From positions 1 through 20,720 of IMG/VR virus record IMGVR_UViG_3300025881_000108: DNA of 20,720 nt; one strand, given 5' to 3'. The position numbers were made by a program, and so were the translations under genes. Shown piece after piece: positions 3,878-19,144 of the stretch. Origin of the DNA: a virus. The notes beneath the pieces were generated by a model. It saw only the letters and a list, made by a program, of their open reading frames with translations. It searched no databases and was not told where the DNA came from. Every line of letters begins with the position of its first letter. Position 1 is the first letter of the stretch.

Positions 3878-4454
3878 AAACTTGTATTCCTTTGTCTGCG
3901 TAATTATGTATCCTTCCCTTCGTATTTGGGAAACTTATTTCTAGCAACCTGCAAAGGTCTACATTGTCTCTGGGTTTGTGAATTTTATCTTTGTTATCTT
4001 TGATGAACTGCATTATATCTTTATTTTCTGCTTGAATGTGTTCCCACATCAAATCGAGATTAACAAAATGCTGGTAGTTTGGATATGTTATGTTGAACTC
4101 GCCACACAGTTTCCACCACTCCAAACATTCAAAATCATTCCTGTACACCATAACAATGGGATGGTGAAAGTCTTTCAGATGTACAAGTTCATGTGCGAAC
4201 GTGTGAGACTTTATAATCCTTTTGCCTTTGCCGGAGAAGGGCAGATCCCAATTATCTCTTGTTGTGCTGAACTCCATGCCCGGATCAAAATAGGCACCCG
4301 TGTGCATGAGATGTTTGCGTCCAGGGGTATCGGCATCGTGGTAGTAGGTTCTCTCTTCTGTATAGTCTGTGTGATCTATATCATCACTCCAGTAGATATT
4401 CTTGACAACACTACTCCACTTTGATCCCGGTGCCCCTGTAAACAAAATATACAT
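3864..4454 (-). CDS. sulfotransferase-like P-loop protein
   Basis: 196 residues. FTGAPGSKWSS at 5-15 sits right at the N-terminus where sulfotransferases carry the 5'-phosphosulfate loop of PAPS binding. RIIKSH at 79-84 matches the usual 'KSH' strand, and IVMVYRND at 100-107 fits the 3'-phosphate binding strand with R105. This order and spacing are those of PAPS-dependent sulfotransferases, though the protein is shorter than typical cellular enzymes (250-300 residues). It would transfer sulfate to a glycan or small molecule. The ATG directly follows the TctC-like stop (TAG-ATG), and its 3' end overlaps the oxygenase. A generic P-loop kinase is the alternative. Confidence 0.6.
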   Translation of the reverse strand: MYILFTGAPGSKWSSVVKNIYWSDDIDHTDYTEERTYYHDADTPGRKHLMHTGAYFDPGMEFSTTRDNWDLPFSGKGKRIIKSHTFAHELVHLKDFHHPIVMVYRNDFECLEWWKLCGEFNITYPNYQHFVNLDLMWEHIQAENKDIMQFIKDNKDKIHKPRDNVDLCRLLEISFPNTKGRIHNYADKGIQVYVYK

Positions 4455-5501
4455 CTATTTGGTCAACTCTTCCTTGTAGATAGCATTGTAACCCAATTGA
4501 TTCTTTCCAAAATCAGATAGTGTTTTCAACGCACCCGGTGTGATGAATGACTTCAGTGTTCTTACTGCGGCGTCACCCTCTGCACCTGTTCTCCATTCGT
4601 ACTTGCCCACTTTCTTTTCGATAGCGGCCACTGACTCTGGATCATTGATCATCTTGTCCAATGCGGCAACAAGTTTGGCCTTGTTTGGATTGCCCTTGTT
4701 CACCCAGAATGCTTTCTGTAAAGCATCTCTCCAACTCTTGACAAGTTTGTACGCATCATAGAAGTCACCACTCGGTGCCACTCCGTATGTTGATTCGTAC
4801 AGTGCCTCAAATGTTGGTTCTGTGAAGTTTGGATCCTTGTCGTGCTCGCCCGTTTTCACATTTAGTAGTCCATGATGGAACCAAGTGTATGCATCACCTT
4901 TTCCTATCACTGGCATCACGTGTTTCTTGTATGCGGCAGGATTTTCCCTTGTCGCGTTCAAATCACCTCTGATGAATGCAAGTCTTCTCTCAGAACCTTT
5001 CATTCCTTTTACCCATACAATCTTGTTCTCAAATGTTTTTACTGGATCACCGTTGGGTCCTGTAAGCAACATGACGATTGCCATGATCTCTGGAGTCATT
5101 CCAGATCCTGACGGAAACTGTATAGGTCCGTTCTTTGTGTCTGCCTTGTTCCTAGCACCCACAATGATGTTTAGGTTCATATGTCCAACTGATTCCCAAT
5201 CAAAGTAATTGTATTCTACAGGTTCCACGAGATATGATATACCGTTACCACCATGTGATACTAATATAGTCTTGTCATCAAACCTTAATTGATTTTGGAA
5301 CTCGTTTGGTCCCAGTTGGTCTCTTGCACCTGGCTTGTAGATAAGATTGATCTTCTCACCCAGGTGTTTCTCCCATTCCGCTACAACTATCTGTGCCCAC
5401 ACAGAAGTTCCACCAGATGGTTTTTGTGGCACGATCAAGTTGTAATCTGCCAGCGCCGTTGTTGTCATCAACACCAACGCCATTATTGTTTTCTTAAGCA
5501 T
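4455..5501 (-). CDS. tctC: tripartite tricarboxylate transporter receptor (TctC/Bug-like)
   Basis: 348 residues with a Sec signal peptide: MLKK, a hydrophobic stretch to about residue 18, and a likely cut after ALA. The mature protein begins with the TctC/Bug pattern: a strand (NLIVPQ), then PSGGTSVWAQIV, then YKPGARDQLG, equivalent to 'PGGGTD..AR' and 'NrPGAgG..G' in periplasmic Bug receptors. These receptors bind carboxylates such as citrate and hand them to the TctAB membrane part. The gene overlaps the permease gene by 8 bases (ATGCTTAA), so expression is coupled. The receptor is divergent (Q-K-P for F-P-P) and somewhat longer than usual. The ligand cannot be told. Confidence 0.8.
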   Translation of the reverse strand: MLKKTIMALVLMTTTALADYNLIVPQKPSGGTSVWAQIVVAEWEKHLGEKINLIYKPGARDQLGPNEFQNQLRFDDKTILVSHGGNGISYLVEPVEYNYFDWESVGHMNLNIIVGARNKADTKNGPIQFPSGSGMTPEIMAIVMLLTGPNGDPVKTFENKIVWVKGMKGSERRLAFIRGDLNATRENPAAYKKHVMPVIGKGDAYTWFHHGLLNVKTGEHDKDPNFTEPTFEALYESTYGVAPSGDFYDAYKLVKSWRDALQKAFWVNKGNPNKAKLVAALDKMINDPESVAAIEKKVGKYEWRTGAEGDAAVRTLKSFITPGALKTLSDFGKNQLGYNAIYKEELTK

Positions 5502-6930
5502 AGTCTAATCGACTCCTCTTTGTTATTCCCCAATACATTAGCAGGATAACACATGCCATCAAGAAAATAAAGATAGGCCTTGTGATTAAATCATTTACCG
5601 TATGTAAGGATGTTAGTTGATAAGTGAGGTTGTATATCCTGTCACTTAATATGAACCCAATCAGCAGTGCTGGCCTGCTGACTTGGAATTTTTTACATAG
5701 CACTCCAAATACTGAGAATACTAATAGTACCGCTAGGTCTTCCCACCCTCCCGTGTACTGCAAGGTTGCCCAAACAATCACAGCAAGTATGCAAGGAAAG
5801 TAGTACACGTATGGAATACGTGTCATCCACCCCGCGAAATATGCCAGTCCATAACACAAGACAGCAGTGATAATTGTTCCAAGTAGGAACGCATAGGTCA
5901 TGCTGTCAAATAATTTGTCGTCGTAGAATGTATCAGGTGATCCCAGGTCAATGCCCAGGTACAAAAATAGTCCCATCAGTATCGCGGCGAAACTTGCACC
6001 AGGTATACCAAACAAGACTGTTGGAATGAATGACGAGGCCTTCTGTGCGTTGTTGGCCCCCTCGGCGCCTACGACTCCCTTTACATTGCCAACGCCAAAC
6101 TTTTCTTTTGGATTAGCGGCAACTGTGGCACCGTATGCCAACCAGTCTGCCATTGCACCACCCAGTCCAGGTAGCAGTCCTATGAAAGAACCTATGGCTC
6201 CTCCCCTGGCACTGTCCTTCCAACATCGTATGGTATCTTTTACTCCTTGTTTGAGATCTTGCCAACTGCCGTGTTCTGCTTTTATCGTTGTGGTCTTCTT
6301 CCTGTTGAACCATCCGTCCCAGAGTTCTGGTATCGCAAAAAGTCCTGCCATGTAAGGTAATATCTGTACACCATCTTCGAGGTATCTCCAACCCATTGTA
6401 AATCTTGGTACGTTGTTGACATCCACTCCAATCAGACCTACGGTCACACCTAACACGATTGCGAGCACACTCCTGACATATCGCCTAGTGGATACGAATC
6501 CCACAGTTACAAATGCCAATAGCACCAATGCCCACAGTTCGGGTATGCCCATGTACATCACAACTTTGGTGTACCATGGCAAAAATAAAAATGTAAGTGA
6601 TCCCCAGAATAGACCATTGCAAGTAGACGAAGTGATCGCGGCACTCAATGCCCTAGTGGCCTCTCCATTCTTGGCCATGGGAAAACCATCCACCATGGTG
6701 GCCGCCGCAGAGTTGGCTCCAGGTATGCCTAACAGCACACCTGCAAATGAATCACCGGTTGTTGAGGATGCCACAACTGCCACGCAGAATATCACACCCA
6801 GGTAAGGGTCTCCTACAAAGTAGGGCATGACTCCAAATAGTGTGATAAGACCTGTTGTTGCTCCCGCGGCTGGTATTAGGCCAATGATTAAGCCGTAAAC
6901 AATACCCGCCATTAATATAGCAAGTTCCAT
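5494..6930 (-). CDS. tctA: tripartite tricarboxylate transporter large permease (TctA-like)
   Basis: 478 residues, very hydrophobic, about 10-12 membrane segments. It shows the two-fold repeat of TctA: GLIPAAG (17-23) with LGIPGAN (67-73) and DGFPMAKNGEATRAL (81-95), and again LLPGLGG (252-258), EGANNA (290-295) with FGIPGAS (307-313). EGANNA and the twin GIPG loops are family hallmarks. Length is near normal (about 500), so it looks intact. The ATG is the first possible start, because a TAA lies 5 codons upstream in frame, but no Shine-Dalgarno precedes it. TctA works with the small subunit TctB and receptor TctC; no tctB is seen here, and the order (A before C) is reversed from the usual bacterial operon. 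The role is probably carboxylate uptake by the infected host. Confidence 0.88.
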   Translation of the reverse strand: MELAILMAGIVYGLIIGLIPAAGATTGLITLFGVMPYFVGDPYLGVIFCVAVVASSTTGDSFAGVLLGIPGANSAAATMVDGFPMAKNGEATRALSAAITSSTCNGLFWGSLTFLFLPWYTKVVMYMGIPELWALVLLAFVTVGFVSTRRYVRSVLAIVLGVTVGLIGVDVNNVPRFTMGWRYLEDGVQILPYMAGLFAIPELWDGWFNRKKTTTIKAEHGSWQDLKQGVKDTIRCWKDSARGGAIGSFIGLLPGLGGAMADWLAYGATVAANPKEKFGVGNVKGVVGAEGANNAQKASSFIPTVLFGIPGASFAAILMGLFLYLGIDLGSPDTFYDDKLFDSMTYAFLLGTIITAVLCYGLAYFAGWMTRIPYVYYFPCILAVIVWATLQYTGGWEDLAVLLVFSVFGVLCKKFQVSRPALLIGFILSDRIYNLTYQLTSLHTVNDLITRPIFIFLMACVILLMYWGITKRSRLDYA

Positions 6931-13085: not shown

Positions 13086-13121
13086 GTTTAAGCATCAGTT
13101 TAAGCATCAGTTTAAGCATCA
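13086..13121. repeat. tandem 12-bp direct repeat, three copies
   Basis: GTTTAAGCATCA is repeated three times exactly (13086-13097, 13098-13109, 13110-13121) between two divergent late-type genes. It could be an iteron-like protein-binding site, a regulator of both genes, or replication slippage. The rest of the 164-base divergent region (13001-13164) holds only the two TAAATAC boxes. Confidence 0.9.
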
Positions 13122-13153
13122 GTAAGGTTTAGTAGAGTTAGGTGTAAGGTCAA

Positions 13154-13160
13154 TAAATAC
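13154..13160 (+). promoter_or_regulatory. late-promoter-like TAAATAC box
   Basis: AATAAATAC ends 4 bases before the ATG at 13165; no Shine-Dalgarno lies in range. It is the closest of the set to the T4 late core TATAAATA. Confidence 0.5.
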
Positions 13161-13164
13161 TTGT

Positions 13165-13677
13165 ATGAAGATATCGGAAATCACTTTAGCGTCAAAAGAA
13201 TCAAAAGATACAAAATCTAGTGCCACAATATCCAGTGCCATCAAAGGCGATCAGACACAAGATATAGTGCCACAGGATACAGTATCAGAAAATATCTCGG
13301 CACTAGAGGTTGACAGCATTGAAACCCACCCGGATCATTCGGCCATTGCGGAGGGCGTGAGCCAGATCCTGAGGCGTACCAAAGGCAAGGCACCCAAGCA
13401 AGGATTCAGATGCTCATCCGGACCCAGGAAAGGCCGTATTGTGGCCAAACCCAGCACCTGTTTCCAGAAGACGGATCCACAGAAGTCTGCCAAGATCAGG
13501 AAGAAGCGTCAGGCCAAGGCCGGCATAGCAGGCAAGAAACTGGCCATGACCAAAAGGTCTGGAGCAGGATCAAAGAGGTTGCAAGGTGTACAGATCAAGA
13601 AGGCCAAGAACAAGGGCAAGTCGGTGGCCAAAAGAATAGGTGCCAAGGCACCAATCAAATCCAAAATTGTGAAATAG
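13165..13677 (+). CDS. basic phage protein with acidic N-terminal part, starting MKISEI
   Basis: 170 residues of two unlike halves. Residues 1-62 are Ser/Thr/Asp/Glu-rich and low-complexity; residues 66-170 are extremely rich in Lys, Arg, Ala and Gly. GFRCSSGPRKGRIVAKPSTC (80-99) is a short conserved-looking block with a cysteine at each end, a form I associate with unknown proteins of T4-like cyanophages. The start MKI-x-EI is shared with the divergent basic protein at 12764-13000. It could be an internal head (DNA-associated) protein: T4 internal proteins are basic and carry an N-terminal MKTYQEFI-type leader. That is an analogy, not shown. The stop is 2 bases from the convergent stop at 13680. 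Confidence 0.65.
   Translation: MKISEITLASKESKDTKSSATISSAIKGDQTQDIVPQDTVSENISALEVDSIETHPDHSAIAEGVSQILRRTKGKAPKQGFRCSSGPRKGRIVAKPSTCFQKTDPQKSAKIRKKRQAKAGIAGKKLAMTKRSGAGSKRLQGVQIKKAKNKGKSVAKRIGAKAPIKSKIVK
13256..13272 (+). repeat. dispersed 17-mer, copy 1 (inside a CDS)
   Basis: CACAAGATATAGTGCCA is identical to positions 18645-18661, though the two lie in different reading frames of unrelated genes. The core ATATAGTGCCA also occurs at 14581-14591 and 18682-18692. Confidence 0.75.
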
Positions 13678-13694
13678 AACTAGTCCTCTAGTTC
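13677..13694. terminator. stem-loop between convergent genes
   Basis: GAACTAG (13677-13683) and CTAGTTC (13688-13694) form a perfect 7-bp stem with a TCCT loop exactly at the two facing stop codons. There is no T-run on either side, so termination would be weak. A two-way pause or 3'-end stabiliser is likelier. Confidence 0.45.
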
Positions 13695-13913
13695 GATACC
13701 GTCGGCCTTCAAAGCCTCTTCTACCACCACTCTGGGTGAGTAGGTCCAAACGGTGAATGAAGCATTGTTCATCTCGTCTCCGTCCACCACTCCCTCTATG
13801 CCCTGTCGCTTTAGGGCGGAATGGATGCTTGGTACTATACTTCTGTCTTGGTCCAAGTCCCAACCGCCTATGTCAGCAACCTGGAAATGGTGCTTATGTG
13901 TTTCATTGGTCAT
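13680..13913 (-). CDS. hypothetical protein
   Basis: 77 residues, acidic, soluble, no known family. It is the third member of a tight minus-strand set; its ATG overlaps the previous stop by 4 bases (ATGA), so it is translationally coupled. The stop lies within a stem-loop shared with the convergent gene. Confidence 0.6.
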   Translation of the reverse strand: MTNETHKHHFQVADIGGWDLDQDRSIVPSIHSALKRQGIEGVVDGDEMNNASFTVWTYSPRVVVEEALKADGIELED

Positions 13914-14167
13914 CTGAACTTACTTTCTAGATGTGTCAGATGCTCTTGACACCACTCTTCGATCTCCATCTTTGCGGGTATGATCTCTGACTCCCTGTAT
14001 CCGAACCCTAGGCAGATGCTATGGAATCGCTCTCCGAACTTCTTAGGTCCCATCAATGCGTCATCGCCATCCTGGGTGTATCCATCAAGGTAGTCTCCCT
14101 TGGTATAGGCCTCTGTCATGTCGTCGACTATTTCCTCAATCGATTTCAACTGTAATCCTTCGATCAT
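13910..14167 (-). CDS. hypothetical protein
   Basis: 85 residues, acidic, predicted helical at the N-terminus (IEEIVDDMTEAYTKGDYLDG) with a C-terminal segment holding two cysteines. No family recognised. Overlaps the upstream gene by one base (TAATG) and the downstream gene by four, so it is read as part of one operon. Confidence 0.6.
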   Translation of the reverse strand: MIEGLQLKSIEEIVDDMTEAYTKGDYLDGYTQDGDDALMGPKKFGERFHSICLGFGYRESEIIPAKMEIEEWCQEHLTHLESKFR

Positions 14168-14409
14168 TATCTAACTATGCCTTTCTGCATGATCTCATGG
14201 TGATCCAATGCGTCTGTGAACTTTGTGGGTTCTGTAGGCACTCTGTCTGTGATATCGTAGTTGTGGATTTTTAGAACCTTCTTCATGTTCTCCACAGCCT
14301 CTAATCTATTTGTTCTTGTTGGAAAACTTGAATCAGATAAGTCTAATTTAATCTTATTGAACAGGTCCATCAACTGGTCTATTTCTTTTTTGTTTAAGTG
14401 TTCTGACAT
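14167..14409 (-). CDS. hypothetical helical protein
   Basis: 80 residues, charged and largely helical, beginning MSEHLNKKEIDQLMDLFNKI; no family recognised. A very strong Shine-Dalgarno (AAAGGGAGGA) lies 6 bases before the ATG, so this is the best-supported start of the minus-strand set. It is transcribed from the promoter at 14519-14546. Confidence 0.65.
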   Translation of the reverse strand: MSEHLNKKEIDQLMDLFNKIKLDLSDSSFPTRTNRLEAVENMKKVLKIHNYDITDRVPTEPTKFTDALDHHEIMQKGIVR

Positions 14410-14513
14410 TATATTTCCTCCCTTTGGTTGTTAATGATTACCGCAAGTGCCTTCTTCAATGCCTCTGACGAGGACTGATATGAGATCTTCAGCACCTGCA
14501 ACCTTGTAATCAT
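14409..14513 (-). CDS. possible 34-residue leader ORF
   Basis: A short frame beginning MITRLQVLKI ends in TAATG, sharing one base with the strong start at 14409, as real phage genes often do. Its ATG falls at the expected transcription start (about 14512), so it could only be translated without a leader. The other genes here with near-leaderless starts keep this possible; chance is equally likely. Confidence 0.3.
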   Translation of the reverse strand: MITRLQVLKISYQSSSEALKKALAVIINNQREEI

Positions 14514-14518
14514 AATTC

Positions 14519-14546
14519 ATTTTAGCACGGATACCTATACCGTCAA
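14519..14546 (-). promoter_or_regulatory. sigma-70-like promoter of the three-gene minus-strand operon
   Basis: TTGACG (14541-14546) and TAAAAT (14519-14524) on the minus strand with a 16-base spacer: the same -35 and spacer length as the three plus-strand operon promoters. It is divergent from the promoter at 14663. Confidence 0.6.
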
Positions 14547-14580
14547 CCAGGTGAATATATATAATAATAATGTAGACATC

Positions 14581-14591
14581 ATATAGTGCCA
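14581..14591 (+). repeat. dispersed repeat, core copy (ATATAGTGCCA)
   Basis: The 11-base core of the dispersed 17-mer, in the divergent intergenic region. A related 13-mer, TACTAGATATAGT, lies 16 bases downstream at 14607-14619 and recurs at 18676-18688. Apart from these and the two promoters, nothing else is seen in the 14514-14723 gap. Confidence 0.6.
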
Positions 14592-14662
14592 CTCAGTGAG
14601 ACCAACTACTAGATATAGTCTTTGGCAAAAAAACTTCCATTCTATGCGACTTCTAGAGGAGG

Positions 14663-14690
14663 TTGACGCATTACCAATCCATTATATACT
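14663..14690 (+). promoter_or_regulatory. operon promoter 1 (TTGACG-N16-TATACT)
   Basis: -35 at 14663-14668, -10 at 14685-14690. TGCGACTTCTAG at 14645-14656 just upstream is repeated before promoter 2. The -10 region contains a short inverted repeat (TATAT, 5 bases, ATATA). The leader ends in AAGGAGTTGAA with AAGGAG 8 bases before the ATG at 14724. Confidence 0.85.
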
Positions 14691-14723
14691 GAATATACAT
14701 TAACCAAATAAGGAGTTGAAAAA

Positions 14724-15014
14724 ATGTATATGAAGTTGAACAAAATGATCCAAGACATCGGTGTATTGAACAACGATGAATTGAACAAAGTTGTAGAGGC
14801 AGTGAAGTTGAGAAGAAATCAATTACACTTCCAAGATGCTCACAGTTTGAAATTCAGAGATAGAGTATCGTTCCAAGGCAGACACGGTAGAACAGAAACT
14901 GGTACCGTTGAAAAAGTTAAGATCAAATATGTGTTGGTAAGAACAGATGCAGGCCAGAGATGGAATGTACCTGGTTCTCACTTAACATTGATCAAGGAGG
15001 CAGTTGATGCCTAA
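14724..15014 (+). CDS. small phage protein with KOW/SH3-like segment
   Basis: 96 residues. The N-terminal 35 residues are helical; residues 41-91 (SLKFRDRVSF, then TGTVEKVKIKYVLVRTD, then RWNVPGSHLTLI) have the strand-turn pattern of a small SH3/KOW-like barrel, suggesting nucleic-acid or ribosome contact. It is similar in feel to a conserved unknown of marine T4-like phages. First gene after operon promoter 1. Its 3' end overlaps the next gene by 8 bases. Confidence 0.65.
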   Translation: MYMKLNKMIQDIGVLNNDELNKVVEAVKLRRNQLHFQDAHSLKFRDRVSFQGRHGRTETGTVEKVKIKYVLVRTDAGQRWNVPGSHLTLIKEAVDA

Positions 15015-15654
15015 TTGGTGCGATAATCAAATTACTATCACAGGGCCAAACTCTGTGATAGACAAGATAGAGAAGATTGTAAAAGAAGAAAAGGATGGTG
15101 ATGGACTTCTTAATTTTATGAGTCCGATGCCCAAAGAACTAGACGGAACAATGGCACCCAGTTCAGCATCAGACAAGCCACAGCCGATGATAGAAGGCTT
15201 TGATAACTGGTACGACTGGAGATGTGAGAATTGGAGCACCAAGTGGGACGTCAATGAGTTCTACGGTGTGGACAGACAGCACCTAAATGATTCATTAGAC
15301 GAATCTACAATCTCATTTGGGTTCAGTTCAGCCTGGTCACCACCAATAAATGCCTACCAAACATTCATAATGAATATGTCAGAGAAGAATTTGGATGTGT
15401 CCGTGAAGGCGTACTACTACGAAGGTGGATGTGATTTCATGGGGTGTTGGGACAATGGAGATGACGACTGTTATGCTCCAAGCGATTACAAATCAACAGA
15501 TGACTTTTGGCAAGACGGCGTAGGTTCTACCCTGGATGATGTTTTCAACATCACGGAGTCCATGGCGGAGTACGAAGCAGAACAAGAAGCAGAAAAAGAA
15601 GATGTCCATGAGTATGTTAAAGGTCAAGCGATGAACATAGGGGAGGAGGCATAA
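15007..15654 (+). CDS. Api92/YubB-like protein
   Basis: 215 residues from the ATG at 15007; GGAGG lies 7 bases upstream. The N-terminus MPNWCDNQITITGP is the signature of the Api92-like (DUF1281/YubB) group found on phages and plasmids, and FSSAWSPPINAY near residue 100 is the second conserved element (aromatic 'W.PP' loop). The fold is ferredoxin-like; the biochemical role is unknown. A Glu-rich tail of about 30 residues follows. It is linked to its neighbours by overlapping start and stop codons. Confidence 0.8.
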   Translation: MPNWCDNQITITGPNSVIDKIEKIVKEEKDGDGLLNFMSPMPKELDGTMAPSSASDKPQPMIEGFDNWYDWRCENWSTKWDVNEFYGVDRQHLNDSLDESTISFGFSSAWSPPINAYQTFIMNMSEKNLDVSVKAYYYEGGCDFMGCWDNGDDDCYAPSDYKSTDDFWQDGVGSTLDDVFNITESMAEYEAEQEAEKEDVHEYVKGQAMNIGEEA

Positions 15655-15833
15655 TGCCAAAGAAACTTTATAGAGTCCATGCAACCAAAGAGGTTTGGAT
15701 GGAGGCAGACATAGAGGCCAACAGTGAAGATGAAGCATTAAAACTGGCCGAGGAACATCACGGAGAACAGGAGTGGGATGAAAATCACTCTCAAGGTGGT
15801 GACTGGTCATATGACGAAGTGGAGGAACTATAA
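15654..15833 (+). CDS. small acidic protein, possibly DpnD/PcfM-like
   Basis: 59 residues. The ATG shares one base with the previous stop (TAATG) and the site GGGGAGGAGG lies close upstream. The pattern RVHATKEVWMEADIEANSED followed by EALKLAEE resembles the small domain 'y.V.......v.v.A.s.eEA...A' found in phage and plasmid proteins such as DpnD/PcfM; the match is short and tentative. Function unknown. Confidence 0.6.
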   Translation: MPKKLYRVHATKEVWMEADIEANSEDEALKLAEEHHGEQEWDENHSQGGDWSYDEVEEL

Positions 15834-16009
15834 TGACAAGACAAGCGACTGACAAGATATTGGAGATGGTTGAAGAAGGCGTCCTGGACAAGGATACTGT
15901 GATAATGTCGTGCCTGAAGTATATGTCGGAAGACGATGTGGCAGACATGGCTCACTCCAATGAGTTTTTTATCAACGAGGAAGAGTACGATGAGGAGGAT
16001 GAAGAGTAA
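15833..16009 (+). CDS. small acidic conserved phage protein
   Basis: 58 residues. It begins MTRQATDKILEMVEEGVLDK, continues with CLKYMSEDDVADMAHSNEF, and ends in an almost purely Asp/Glu tail. I recall a 'KYMSEDDVADM' motif in small conserved cyanophage proteins of unknown role. Start and stop codons overlap those of both neighbours (TAATG). Strong negative charge could suit a DNA mimic or a binding partner of a basic protein, but this is speculation. Confidence 0.65.
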   Translation: MTRQATDKILEMVEEGVLDKDTVIMSCLKYMSEDDVADMAHSNEFFINEEEYDEEDEE

Positions 16010-16260
16010 TGTGGGAAGATGAATTATTTGACGAGATACAAAAGGGTGACAAGGTCTGGTACTGTGGAGACGAGAACGACGACACGGTGTACGGACCAGC
16101 CAAAGCAATGATGATAGGACCTATGGGTTGGGTCTGTGACAAGGGTGACGGACAACCTATAGTGGTCAACGAAGGCGCCAACTATCTAGGCCATACTCCT
16201 GCTGAGGACAGGGAGCCAGATCACTTTGGTCACTTCATGAACACACACGGAGCAGACTAG
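16009..16260 (+). CDS. hypothetical protein
   Basis: 83 residues, acidic, rich in Trp, Gly and His, probably a small beta domain (KGDKVWYCGDEND, then GPMGWVCDKGDG). No family recognised. It overlaps the previous stop by one base, with a GAGGA site 6-10 bases upstream, and abuts the next gene directly (TAG-ATG). Confidence 0.6.
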   Translation: MWEDELFDEIQKGDKVWYCGDENDDTVYGPAKAMMIGPMGWVCDKGDGQPIVVNEGANYLGHTPAEDREPDHFGHFMNTHGAD

Positions 16261-16944
16261 ATGGCGACCATAGAACAGAAGAAGAAACTGATCAAGACGA
16301 TCAAGAACCCATTCAGGTACTTCAGACTGAACTTCAGTCGATATGGCGGTGAGGTCGCGATGGGCACCATAACCAAGGACCAGTTCGAGTATTGGTACGA
16401 CAACGACGGCTTCGAGGAGTACATGGCCGCGGTGGATTTCGATGCCGATGACGCCAACAAGGAGATACCCAAACGAGCACAGTTCACACACCCGTTCTAC
16501 GAGTACAGTGACATCTGTCACCTGTCAGGACCAGAATGGGCGGGAGGACAGACACTCTATATCGAAGAGGTGAACAAGGACGGCAATCCGATGGACGACG
16601 GTGATGGTGGTTATGTGAAAGACATCCAGCACGACTTCGATGACTTCACGTCACTGGGGGCCACCGTTGAATGTGAGGAGACGCATAACTCCGGTTCCAA
16701 GAGTTGTCAGGACCATTATTATGTGTTCGGACAGTATTTCAACAAGGGTGGTTGGCACACGCCAGACATCATCAAGACAGATGTAGACGGAATACTGATG
16801 GACAAACTCAAGATCCGATACACGGATGCGGACGGATTCAAGGTTTTCAATGAGGTGGAGTATGATGGCGAGATGTACTATCTGGAAGAGGATAGCACCG
16901 GAAAATCGTCAAGTTTCTATGTGATGGAAGGAGATAATCTTTAA
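16261..16944 (+). CDS. conserved-looking phage protein of unknown function
   Basis: 227 residues, acidic, soluble. The segment NFSRYGGEVAMGTITKDQFEYW near residues 24-45 recalls a block seen in unknown proteins of T4-like cyanophages. No catalytic motif identified. It is the last gene of operon 1; 32 bases separate it from promoter 2, with no terminator between, so read-through into operon 2 is likely. Confidence 0.65.
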   Translation: MATIEQKKKLIKTIKNPFRYFRLNFSRYGGEVAMGTITKDQFEYWYDNDGFEEYMAAVDFDADDANKEIPKRAQFTHPFYEYSDICHLSGPEWAGGQTLYIEEVNKDGNPMDDGDGGYVKDIQHDFDDFTSLGATVECEETHNSGSKSCQDHYYVFGQYFNKGGWHTPDIIKTDVDGILMDKLKIRYTDADGFKVFNEVEYDGEMYYLEEDSTGKSSSFYVMEGDNL

Positions 16945-16976
16945 GAAAGTCAATGATCTTGCGACTTCTAGCACGG

Positions 16977-17004
16977 TTGACGCTATTACCAGCCATGTTA
17001 TACT
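16977..17004 (+). promoter_or_regulatory. operon promoter 2 (TTGACG-N16-TATACT)
   Basis: -35 at 16977-16982, -10 at 16999-17004. GCGACTTCTAG (16961-16971) precedes it as in promoter 1. The leader contains AAAGGAG 8 bases before the ATG at 17030. Confidence 0.88.
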
Positions 17005-17014
17005 GAATTATAAC
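16997..17014. promoter_or_regulatory. inverted repeat over the -10, candidate operator
   Basis: GTTATA (16997-17002) and TATAAC (17009-17014) with the 6-base loop CTGAAT. The same 18 bases recur exactly at promoter 3. Position over the -10 and start site suits a repressor site or a 5' hairpin. Confidence 0.6.
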
Positions 17015-17029
17015 AAAGGAGTTGAAAAT

Positions 17030-17422
17030 ATGTATAAAAGAGACCAACACTATAACGAGAAGATTTCTACAGAAGATCTTTACAAAGAATTAGACACTCA
17101 TTACAATGGTGAAACAGACCTAGTTAGGAATTTGATGTCTTATGCAATCACAGACGAACTAATAGAAACAAGACACGAATTATCTTGTGCCAATGAAGAA
17201 CTTTGGTGCCTAAATGATTGGCCCGAAGGTGAAGGATTTGGCAGTTCAGATAGATCAGAATATTTGAGAAGAATCAAAGAGACTGTCGCTTTTGAAAGAT
17301 CATTCCTACAGGCAGAGAATGAGTTGGTGCAGATCAACAAGTTGGAGGAGTCTCCAAAGAATGATACTGTTAGAGCATATATGAAAATGAACGACAAACT
17401 AAAAGAAGGGATGGTGGCATAA
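17030..17422 (+). CDS. hypothetical helical protein
   Basis: 130 residues, acidic, mostly helical (for example LVRNLMSYAITDELIETRHE near 30-50, and a helix around 90-110). No family recognised. First gene after promoter 2 with a strong Shine-Dalgarno; its stop overlaps the next start by one base (TAATG). Confidence 0.65.
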   Translation: MYKRDQHYNEKISTEDLYKELDTHYNGETDLVRNLMSYAITDELIETRHELSCANEELWCLNDWPEGEGFGSSDRSEYLRRIKETVAFERSFLQAENELVQINKLEESPKNDTVRAYMKMNDKLKEGMVA

Positions 17423-17964
17423 TGGCGACTAGAGCGAGGATAGGTATAAAACAGAAGAGCGGAAGAATAATAGCATCGTACCAACATTGGGACGGATACC
17501 CAGGAGGACTAGGATACAACCTATGTGAAAATTGGGAGAACTCAAAGAAGGTCACTGATGCGATCAAGTTAGGTGACAGTAGCAAGTGGGGAGTGATCAT
17601 AGGTGAGAAGCACGACTTCGATGCTGACAGACACGGTTCGGACTTCGAACATATGAATTGCTATTACAACCGAGACAGAGGCGAGAAGGATTGTGGATAC
17701 AAGGTCTACAAGGATGAAGCCGAATACATTGAGAACGGTTTCAGATCAGGAGAACAGTATGTGTACCTTATGAAGGACACAGGCGACAAGGATTACCTTG
17801 GCAATCCGAAGTTCACTTGGTACTATGTGGAGAGCAGATACACTTCAGAAGGCAAGGAAGTGATCGACACTGAATTCAAACCTTTGGAGAGATATGCAAT
17901 TTTAGAACACATCGACATCCTGAAGAGAACATTGGAACAGATGGATGAAAGGAAGGTGGCCTAG
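17422..17964 (+). CDS. phage protein with HWDGYP motif
   Basis: 180 residues. MATRARIGI at the start and YQHWDGYPGGLG at 20-31 define a family of unknown phage proteins that I recognise by this N-terminus. The rest is a mixed domain with many aromatic and acidic residues; no catalytic assignment. Translationally coupled to both neighbours (TAATG before, TAG-ATG after). Confidence 0.7.
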   Translation: MATRARIGIKQKSGRIIASYQHWDGYPGGLGYNLCENWENSKKVTDAIKLGDSSKWGVIIGEKHDFDADRHGSDFEHMNCYYNRDRGEKDCGYKVYKDEAEYIENGFRSGEQYVYLMKDTGDKDYLGNPKFTWYYVESRYTSEGKEVIDTEFKPLERYAILEHIDILKRTLEQMDERKVA

Positions 17965-18153
17965 ATGGTCAGGATTGATTGGAGATACCTCAAGGAGAGA
18001 GGCGACTACAAGGTGGACGAATCCAAGAACAGAGGGTTCAGCCTTGTGGAAGTCGATCAAGAATACGATGTGAAGACGGTGCTGGAATCTTTCTATGAGA
18101 GCATGAAGGAGCCAGTGAAAATTATCAACATAAGAAGAGAGGAAATAATATAG
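17965..18153 (+). CDS. hypothetical small protein
   Basis: 62 residues, charged, probably alpha/beta; no family recognised. The ATG follows the previous stop with no gap, and its TAG shares a base with the GTG of the next frame. The site AAGGAAGGTGG lies just upstream, which supports translation. Confidence 0.6.
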   Translation: MVRIDWRYLKERGDYKVDESKNRGFSLVEVDQEYDVKTVLESFYESMKEPVKIINIRREEII

Positions 18154-18272
18154 TGAGCAAGGTGAAGAAGGTTGCATTATCATTTGGTGATGGAATGTTA
18201 TTCGCTTCGTACACAGTTCTACCAGTGATTGGTATTATGTGGGCGACGGGTATAGTAAGTTTGAACGTATAA
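18153..18272 (+). CDS. 39-residue membrane protein (GTG start)
   Basis: GTG overlaps the previous stop by one base (TAGTG). The protein starts MSKVKK and then has a hydrophobic segment (LFASYTVLPVIGIMWATGIV) long enough to cross the membrane once, with a basic, probably cytoplasmic N-terminus. No family recognised. The good fit between neighbours and the basic-hydrophobic plan favour a real gene. Small phage membrane proteins of this type often modify host envelope functions, but none is shown here. Confidence 0.55.
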   Translation: MSKVKKVALSFGDGMLFASYTVLPVIGIMWATGIVSLNV

Positions 18273-18282
18273 GGAGGGGCAG

Positions 18283-18681
18283 ATGCCCAAGAAAGAAAAG
18301 ATATGGACAATGGGGAACAAGGGTCCGACAGGACCTTGGGTTTGGCACGCCTGGATCAAAGGTGGCAAGAAACCTGTTAGGGTCGTGGCGTTTGATTTAG
18401 AACATATCAAGTGTCAGTTAGAAGGCAAGACGGTGATCAAGGCCGTGAAGCAACCGGAGGAGAAGGATGAGTTCTCATCTGTACCGTTAGGACCAAAGGG
18501 TTCTAAAGTGAACAGACCAGCGGACTATGACAAAGGATTTAAGATATTGAGGGAATGGGTAGACCTAAATGGTGGACCACCGGAGGAGATCAGGGTGAAA
18601 CTTCGTGAACTCTACATAGATTATGAAGTGATAAAGAGAAAAACCACAAGATATAGTGCCAGAAAAAAGAAAAGATACTAG
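18283..18681 (+). CDS. hypothetical basic protein
   Basis: 132 residues with many Lys/Arg and a basic C-terminal tail (TRYSARKKKRY). The first part (GPTGPWVWHAWIKGGKKP, then VVAFDLEHIKC) has Trp-rich strands; no family known. AAGGAGG lies 7 bases before the ATG. The last codons contain a copy of the dispersed 17-mer. The last gene before promoter 3, with no terminator. Confidence 0.6.
   Translation: MPKKEKIWTMGNKGPTGPWVWHAWIKGGKKPVRVVAFDLEHIKCQLEGKTVIKAVKQPEEKDEFSSVPLGPKGSKVNRPADYDKGFKILREWVDLNGGPPEEIRVKLRELYIDYEVIKRKTTRYSARKKKRY
18645..18661 (+). repeat. dispersed 17-mer, copy 2 (inside the end of a CDS)
   Basis: CACAAGATATAGTGCCA, identical to 13256-13272. Here it encodes part of T-R-Y-S-A, whereas in the other gene it encodes part of Q-D-I-V-P, so conservation is at DNA level. 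Confidence 0.75.
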
Positions 18682-18692
18682 ATATAGTGCCA
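18682..18692 (+). repeat. dispersed repeat, core copy next to promoter 3
   Basis: ATATAGTGCCA, 21 bases after the end of the copy in the preceding CDS and 8 bases before the -35. TACTAGATATAGT (18676-18688) overlaps it and also occurs at 14607-14619 before promoter 1. Confidence 0.65.
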
Positions 18693-18700
18693 TTTAGAGG

Positions 18701-18728
18701 TTGACGCTATCCGTTGCCATGTTATACT
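18701..18728 (+). promoter_or_regulatory. operon promoter 3 (TTGACG-N16-TATACT)
   Basis: -35 at 18701-18706, -10 at 18723-18728. It is followed by a leader ending AAGGAGTTGAA and the ATG at 18758. It drives the lysis-ligase operon. Confidence 0.88.
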
Positions 18729-18757: not shown

Positions 18758-19144
18758 ATGAATACAATAGAAGAAAACAAAGACCTTTTAAAATTCAATG
18801 CAGAAGGCATACATCCTACAGATATGTTTATCAATGCGAGAGCAAAGGCAGTAGAAGCCGTTGATAAGTTCATGGAAGGCAGAGAGGAACCAATGTACTG
18901 TGGTTTCGCCAATATTTCGATACATCCTGCAAGGGGTAGATTTGTTTCTATCATGAAGAAGGCAGGCATAGGCGATAGCGGTTTCAGAGGCGGATACAGA
19001 ATATCTTATTATGATATTATGCCACAGGATCACCAATATGCTAGAACACAGTCGTTGGACATCAAAGAAATAGCCACAGAGGCTTTCAGAGATGAACTTA
19101 GAAAATATGGTTTGACTGTATATGCAGAAAGCAGAGCAGACTAG
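18758..19144 (+). CDS. conserved-looking phage protein of unknown function
   Basis: 128 residues. A helical N-terminus is followed by a block rich in Gly, Arg and aromatic residues (CGFANISIHPARGRF at 48-62, then SGFRGGYRISYYD at 74-86). Similar 'cGfa.i.i.pa.g.f' proteins are, as I recall, common unknowns in large phages. First gene after promoter 3; its TAG shares one base with the GTG of the hydrolase. Confidence 0.65.
   Translation: MNTIEENKDLLKFNAEGIHPTDMFINARAKAVEAVDKFMEGREEPMYCGFANISIHPARGRFVSIMKKAGIGDSGFRGGYRISYYDIMPQDHQYARTQSLDIKEIATEAFRDELRKYGLTVYAESRAD

Follow-up and report, generated by a model that had tools for sequence, protein, structure and literature searches.

Predicted NrdR boxes away from RNR genes suggest that a marine virus reads or disturbs the DNA-supply sensor of its host

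A short element that recurs in the DNA of a marine virus is, judged by its sequence, likely to be best read as a set of predicted NrdR boxes; given its position at genes unrelated to RNR, the virus may be reading or disturbing the DNA-supply sensor of its host. NrdR is a bacterial protein which senses the supply of DNA building blocks and shuts off their synthesis, and is a known repressor. The supply of dNTPs limits phage DNA replication, and it is known that some phages carry an RNR of their own and that some break down the DNA of the host. If host NrdR binds the viral sites, phage operons would respond to the dATP level, or phage DNA would lift the repression of host RNR. A search of open PMC text turned up no earlier account of NrdR boxes in phages at a distance from RNR genes, nor of phage sites for the host RNR repressor; the novelty is provisional because the literature search covered this text only. 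The window analysed here is an entire IMG/VR virus record of 20,720 bases, and the wider genome can be viewed only through relatives.

In the window, ATATAGTGCCA occurs exactly at 13262, 14581, 18651 and 18682, every copy being on the + strand, and a 17-mer occurs exactly at 13256 and 18645. These copies had been reported in the first-pass annotation and all are present where it placed them, as is TACTAGATATAGT at 14607 and 18676. With up to one mismatch ATATAGTGCCA has five matches, far above the 0.32 expected, and five were reached in 0 of 100 shuffles. Further copies of the 17-mer, with up to three mismatches, lie at 13209, 13224, 14575 and 18676. Relatives reveal that the full unit is a near-palindrome, CACWAnATnTWGTG, of 14–16 bp, with ATATAGTGCCA as its right part. 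The copies fall into three sites, namely an array at 13209–13284, a pair at 14575/14607 and a pair at 18645/18676, and the distances within pairs are 32 bp (array boxes 2 and 3), 32 bp and 31 bp, respectively. Pairs 31–32 bp apart arose by chance only twice in total over 200 shuffles of the window. The earlier description of the element was therefore right about the copies, but missed the near-palindrome, the pairs and arrays at fixed spacing, and the further copies. Likewise, the cores do all lie on the + strand as it said, but because the unit is a near-palindrome of 14–16 bp, a shared orientation marks merely the CCA side.

Chance, codon usage or recent duplication can be given next to no weight as the origin of these repeats. 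The pair at 18633–18692 does also score as a tandem repeat of period 31, as a recent duplication might, but the boxes are conserved in diverged relatives, which refutes this reading, and the excess over shuffles argues against chance. Codon usage had already been doubted, rightly, as the same motif stands in different reading frames and between genes; the two 17-mers read as (T)QDIVP in gene 13165–13677 and as TRYSA in ORF 18283–18681.

Known NrdR boxes are 16-bp palindromes, which occur in pairs with 15–16 bp between them and in which two GC pairs, 9 bp apart, are highly conserved (PMC9110341, PMC12176259). The S. coelicolor box has these pairs at positions 9 and 18, where they contact NrdR (PMC9110341). 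NrdR binds best with spacers of 14–17 bp and next best with 24–27 bp, others being about 100-fold worse (PMC12051234). The viral element has the same architecture. Pairs 31/32 bp apart correspond to a 15–16 bp spacer between 16-bp boxes, or three turns of DNA, which matches the requirement of the NrdR tetramer, and the spacers of the window pairs, 15 and 16 bp, lie within the lengths bound well (14–17 or 24–27 bp). Across the clade to which the window belongs, the count matrix of the 145 distinct boxes (16-mers) is palindromic, as in the NrdR type, with an invariant C (position 4) and an invariant G (position 13) in 145/145, 9 bp apart as in the S. coelicolor box. All distances of up to 120 bp between these boxes are 15, 31, 32, 46, 47 or 62 bp. 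The contiguous 15-bp spacing seen in the array was not found described for NrdR in the open PMC literature.

The same pair pattern was scanned for in bacterial genomes, where it mostly adjoins RNR genes. Counts from the collection scans, bacterial and viral, should be read as minimum values, and the loci sampled do not represent a random selection. Loci of many phyla are among the matches listed. At 80 bacterial loci among these matches, the 121 flanking ORFs include NRDD (20), Ribonuc_red_lgN (15), the class II N-terminal domain (12), Ribonuc_red_sm (4) and the ATP-cone (32), in a Pfam tally that counts ORFs rather than loci and in which some loci are cut or have no suitable ORF. Of 27 bacterial genomes with the pair pattern among the matches listed, 25 encode NrdR. 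A point against the reading is that the exact pattern was rare in two classes, being present in 1 of 289 sampled Alphaproteobacteria, this being the query genome, and in 3 of 114 sampled Gammaproteobacteria, two of them known carriers beforehand.

A phage-encoded regulator or replication protein could instead bind these sites, as operators or iterons that have the NrdR sequence by coincidence. The regular 15/32/15 spacing of the array is iteron-like, incomplete phage genomes could hide the gene for such a protein, and many phage proteins have no assigned function. However, the sequence, the palindrome, the invariant positions and the preference for three and then four turns all equal those of NrdR, and the pair is associated with RNR genes in bacteria. 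We therefore consider a phage-encoded binder unlikely, and keep to the reading as NrdR boxes.

The first site of predicted NrdR boxes is an array that lies in the 5′ portion of gene 13165–13677 (+ strand), which encodes a basic protein of 170 aa. The product had no Pfam or PHROG match, and no match by protein similarity among the phage isolates of INPHARED. The array consists of box 1 at 13209–13222 (TACAAAATCTAGTG, one mismatch), box 2 at 13224–13237 (CACAATATCCAGTG, one mismatch; 32 bp from box 3), box 3 at 13256–13269 (CACAAGATATAGTG, perfect), which is the first 17-mer of the first-pass annotation, and box 4 at 13271–13284 (CACAGGATACAGTA), which is degenerate in the window and better in homologs. 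Box 1 starts at +44 nt from the ATG, an offset unchanged in nearly all homologs of the gene, and the four-box array of the homologs lies at +44, +59, +91 and +106 from the ATG, with variants of three boxes (L101–L103) or a 3-nt shift (L100). Boxes 1–2 translate as TxSSA and boxes 3–4 as QDIVP, that is, in two different frames. Conservation at synonymous sites in the homologs is 0.80 in box codons vs 0.60 in the rest (permutation p 0.0003).

The gene is preceded by AATAAATAC, which resembles a T4 late promoter by consensus match only and is replaced by CTATAAATAC in most homologs, with the array directly behind it. Gene 13165–13677 is probably a late gene. The AATAAATAC element lies at 13150–13167 and ends about 4 nt before the ATG, so that an mRNA started by a T4-like late promoter at this place would have no leader, unless the start codon is misplaced. 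Further upstream of the gene, at 13086–13123, there is a tandem 12-mer, GTTTAAGCATCA, in 3.2 copies, and similar repeats, TTAAGCATCAG/TATAAGCATCAG, occupy the same place in most homologs.

The array could also act as RNA, with the late mRNA forming a long hairpin at its 5′ end, and the array does fold far better than shuffles (z −4.8). Near-palindromic repeats fold anyway, however, and neither promoter site shows such folding (z 0.05 and −0.34). Covarying base pairs were looked for and none was found beyond shuffles, and at several box positions the pairing is absent from 18–20 of 20 sequences. An RNA structural element was therefore rejected, and is very improbable. The RNA-processing site once offered as an explanation of the repeats is not supported on the same grounds, and nothing in the analysis points to the recombination site offered alongside. 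The third option, a protein-binding site, fits the palindrome, the fixed 31/32 bp pairs, the fixed phase to promoters and the DNA-level conservation across frames.

The two other sites of predicted NrdR boxes are pairs at promoters. The pair at promoter 1 is degenerate, with four mismatches over both boxes, and is formed by an upstream box at 14575–14588 (GACATCATATAGTG, two mismatches) and a downstream box at 14607–14620 (TACTAGATATAGTC, two mismatches), 32 bp from the first. Promoter 1 itself (14663–14690, + strand; TTGACG-16-TATACT, consensus match only) has its −35 element 56 bp from the start of the downstream box. On the other side of the pair lies a divergent promoter (14519–14546, − strand; TTGACG-16-TAAAAT, likewise a consensus match only), and the pair between divergent promoters is kept in L032, L085, L090 and L092. 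Promoters 1 and 2 have TGCGACTTCTAG in common upstream of −35 (14640–14665 and 16960–16980), and promoter 2 is without boxes.

The pair at promoter 3 begins with a perfect box at 18645–18658 (CACAAGATATAGTG), which is the second 17-mer of the earlier description and sits within the end of ORF 18283–18681. The stop codon of that ORF falls within the downstream box at 18676–18689 (TACTAGATATAGTG, one mismatch), which is 31 bp from the first. The −35 of promoter 3 (18701–18728, + strand; TTGACG-16-TATACT, consensus match only) starts 25 bp past the start of this second box. The first gene behind it, at 18758–19144 on the + strand, encodes 128 aa assigned to phrog_22149, with no function assigned, and has one weak match by protein similarity in the INPHARED phage isolates. 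The site is kept in L017, L031, L032 and L035, each of which carries a second such TTGAC-type promoter. In the window and its relatives, the distance from the start of the second box to −35 recurs at 25/26 bp, at 35 bp in other relatives, and at 56–58 bp at promoter 1. The second and third values exceed the first by about one and three helical turns, which keeps roughly one helical phase. The first-pass annotation had made its case hang on an excess of the element and a positional preference. Both were found, as there is a clear preference in position relative to promoters in the window and in relatives, and most relatives have more boxes than the reversed-pattern control.

Such an excess is seen in the clade members G074, G075 and G391, with 10, 8 and 6 boxes vs 0 in the reversed-pattern control. 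The window itself has no nucleotide match and no close relative in INPHARED. On its − strand, at 4455–6930, two ORFs resemble, judging by their translations, the TctC- and TctA-type components of a tripartite tricarboxylate transporter. Its DUF6267 protein is 40–43% identical to proteins of HTVC008M (a Pelagibacter phage), of cyanomyoviruses and of the Methylophilales phage Melnitz, relatives classed as Kyanoviridae where looked up. By this protein, the clade appears to be related to marine Kyanoviridae. The boxes are not general to this family, since the classified isolates HTVC008M and S-PRM1 have box counts no higher than control and Melnitz has scattered box matches with no pairs. Matches to the 17-mer (L005–L037) include unrelated contigs, such as a near-identical soil/wetland group (L005, L010 and L012), which have it through chance or other descent.

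Genes for an RNR large subunit are found in 12 of the 26 clade and outgroup records. The listed boxes lie kilobases away from the phage RNR, for example in G015 with RNR at 4228–5739 and boxes at 28491–35197. Control of the phage's own RNR was therefore rejected as a role for the boxes, which are not near RNR in records with both positions, among the matches listed. The listed clade boxes thus do not stand upstream of RNR or nrdR genes, as they do in the usual NrdR regulon. No phage-encoded NrdR was found in the 26 clade and outgroup records, and none scored over the cut-off in 50 further box-bearing viral records; the search of phage records gave three weak partial matches, below cut-off.

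As the phage apparently lacks an NrdR gene, we take host NrdR as the ligand of the window boxes; this is quite probable, although the binding is something we infer from sequence. The boxes would most likely serve as operators at phage promoters. Each near-palindromic box would accommodate two NrdR zinc-ribbon domains as a pair, and two boxes 31–32 bp apart would form one site for the NrdR tetramer loaded with dATP/ATP. These sites lie at non-RNR phage genes: two are in the promoter regions of operons for small proteins, and the third is at the 5′ end of what is probably a late gene. At high dATP, host NrdR would bind and kink the DNA, and once bound would change, and most likely lower, the output of promoters 1 and 3 as well as transcription across the beginning of the late gene. 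Since host NrdR acts when dATP is high, phage expression would then follow the dNTP state of the cell. We infer both the sign of this effect and its benefit to the phage. Because the boxes do not cover the core promoter but stand upstream of −35, repression is not self-evident. It is taken as the default because NrdR is a known repressor and because there are known promoters in which both core elements follow box 2 (PMC12051234).

One such promoter is that of S. pneumoniae nrdHEF, which has three NrdR boxes with −35 and −10 both downstream of box 2 (PMC12051234). It is like the phage sites in having more than two boxes and downstream core elements, but its spacers are 24–26 bp rather than 15–16 bp and it controls RNR genes (PMC12051234). 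Boxes of bacterial RNR operons (nrdAB, nrdHIEF, nrdDG and nrdRJ) share with those of the phage the 16-bp palindrome, the invariant C/G 9 bp apart, the pairs with 15–16 bp spacers and the proximity to sigma70-type promoters. Unlike them, the phage boxes are phage-borne, away from RNR genes and without nrdR; they lie upstream of −35, and one phage site is a four-box array in coding sequence.

Box pairs also occur in unrelated viruses, and the spacing preference across IMG/VR suggests that they are not confined to one clade. Viral contigs gave at least 120 stretches with pairs at three turns, as against 24 at four turns, 10 with an out-of-phase spacing and 1 for the reversed pattern. This preference mirrors the biochemistry of NrdR, with three turns ahead of four and out-of-phase spacings rarer. 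Terminase, portal, repressor and partition genes neighbour the viral pairs among the matches listed, and RNR families are absent from the 25 commonest Pfam families beside them, again among the matches listed. An RNR large subunit is encoded in 6 of 50 box-bearing viral records, two of the 50 being clade members. By a rough ORF caller, 28 of 61 pairs in unrelated viruses lie between genes, although ORFs make up 87% of the sequence.

The predicted NrdR boxes might mainly be decoys, in that hundreds of phage genome copies with 3–4 sites each would soak up host NrdR and keep host RNR on. Several sites per genome, one of them within coding sequence and conserved at the DNA level, would suit this role, as would the apparent lack of a phage NrdR. 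The RNR large subunit is missing in 44 of the 50 other box-bearing viral records, which are therefore dependent on host RNR. Synthetic transcription factor decoy sites (PMC7826281) offer a parallel, as many site copies could titrate a host regulator, but the phage sites are natural and fixed relative to promoters, and titration is a candidate role only. Pure decoys would have no need of the fixed position and phase that the pairs hold to promoters, the clade of the window has its own RNR, and pairs in unrelated viruses look enriched between genes by the rough ORF caller. A mainly decoy role is thus possible but doubtful. Operators are favoured because box position and phase are conserved, and both uses could hold. 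More broadly, there is an even chance that many unrelated phages take their timing from the host dATP sensor, or else titrate it, through NrdR box pairs at non-RNR genes, which would constitute a general and so far undescribed layer of DNA-precursor control.

Among the viral loci L223–L295, which have predicted NrdR box pairs, several lie beside terminase large subunit genes (phrog_38, 4758, 30251 and 9). At L345–L347, L351 and L352, box pairs are 35–36 bp apart, a spacing that departs from the helical phase usual for NrdR, and recur about 80 bp on. In G068, the record of L283, the RNR large subunit at 87005–89480 is in two pieces separated by about 970 bases, with a stop codon in the first, which possibly reflects an intron or a broken gene.
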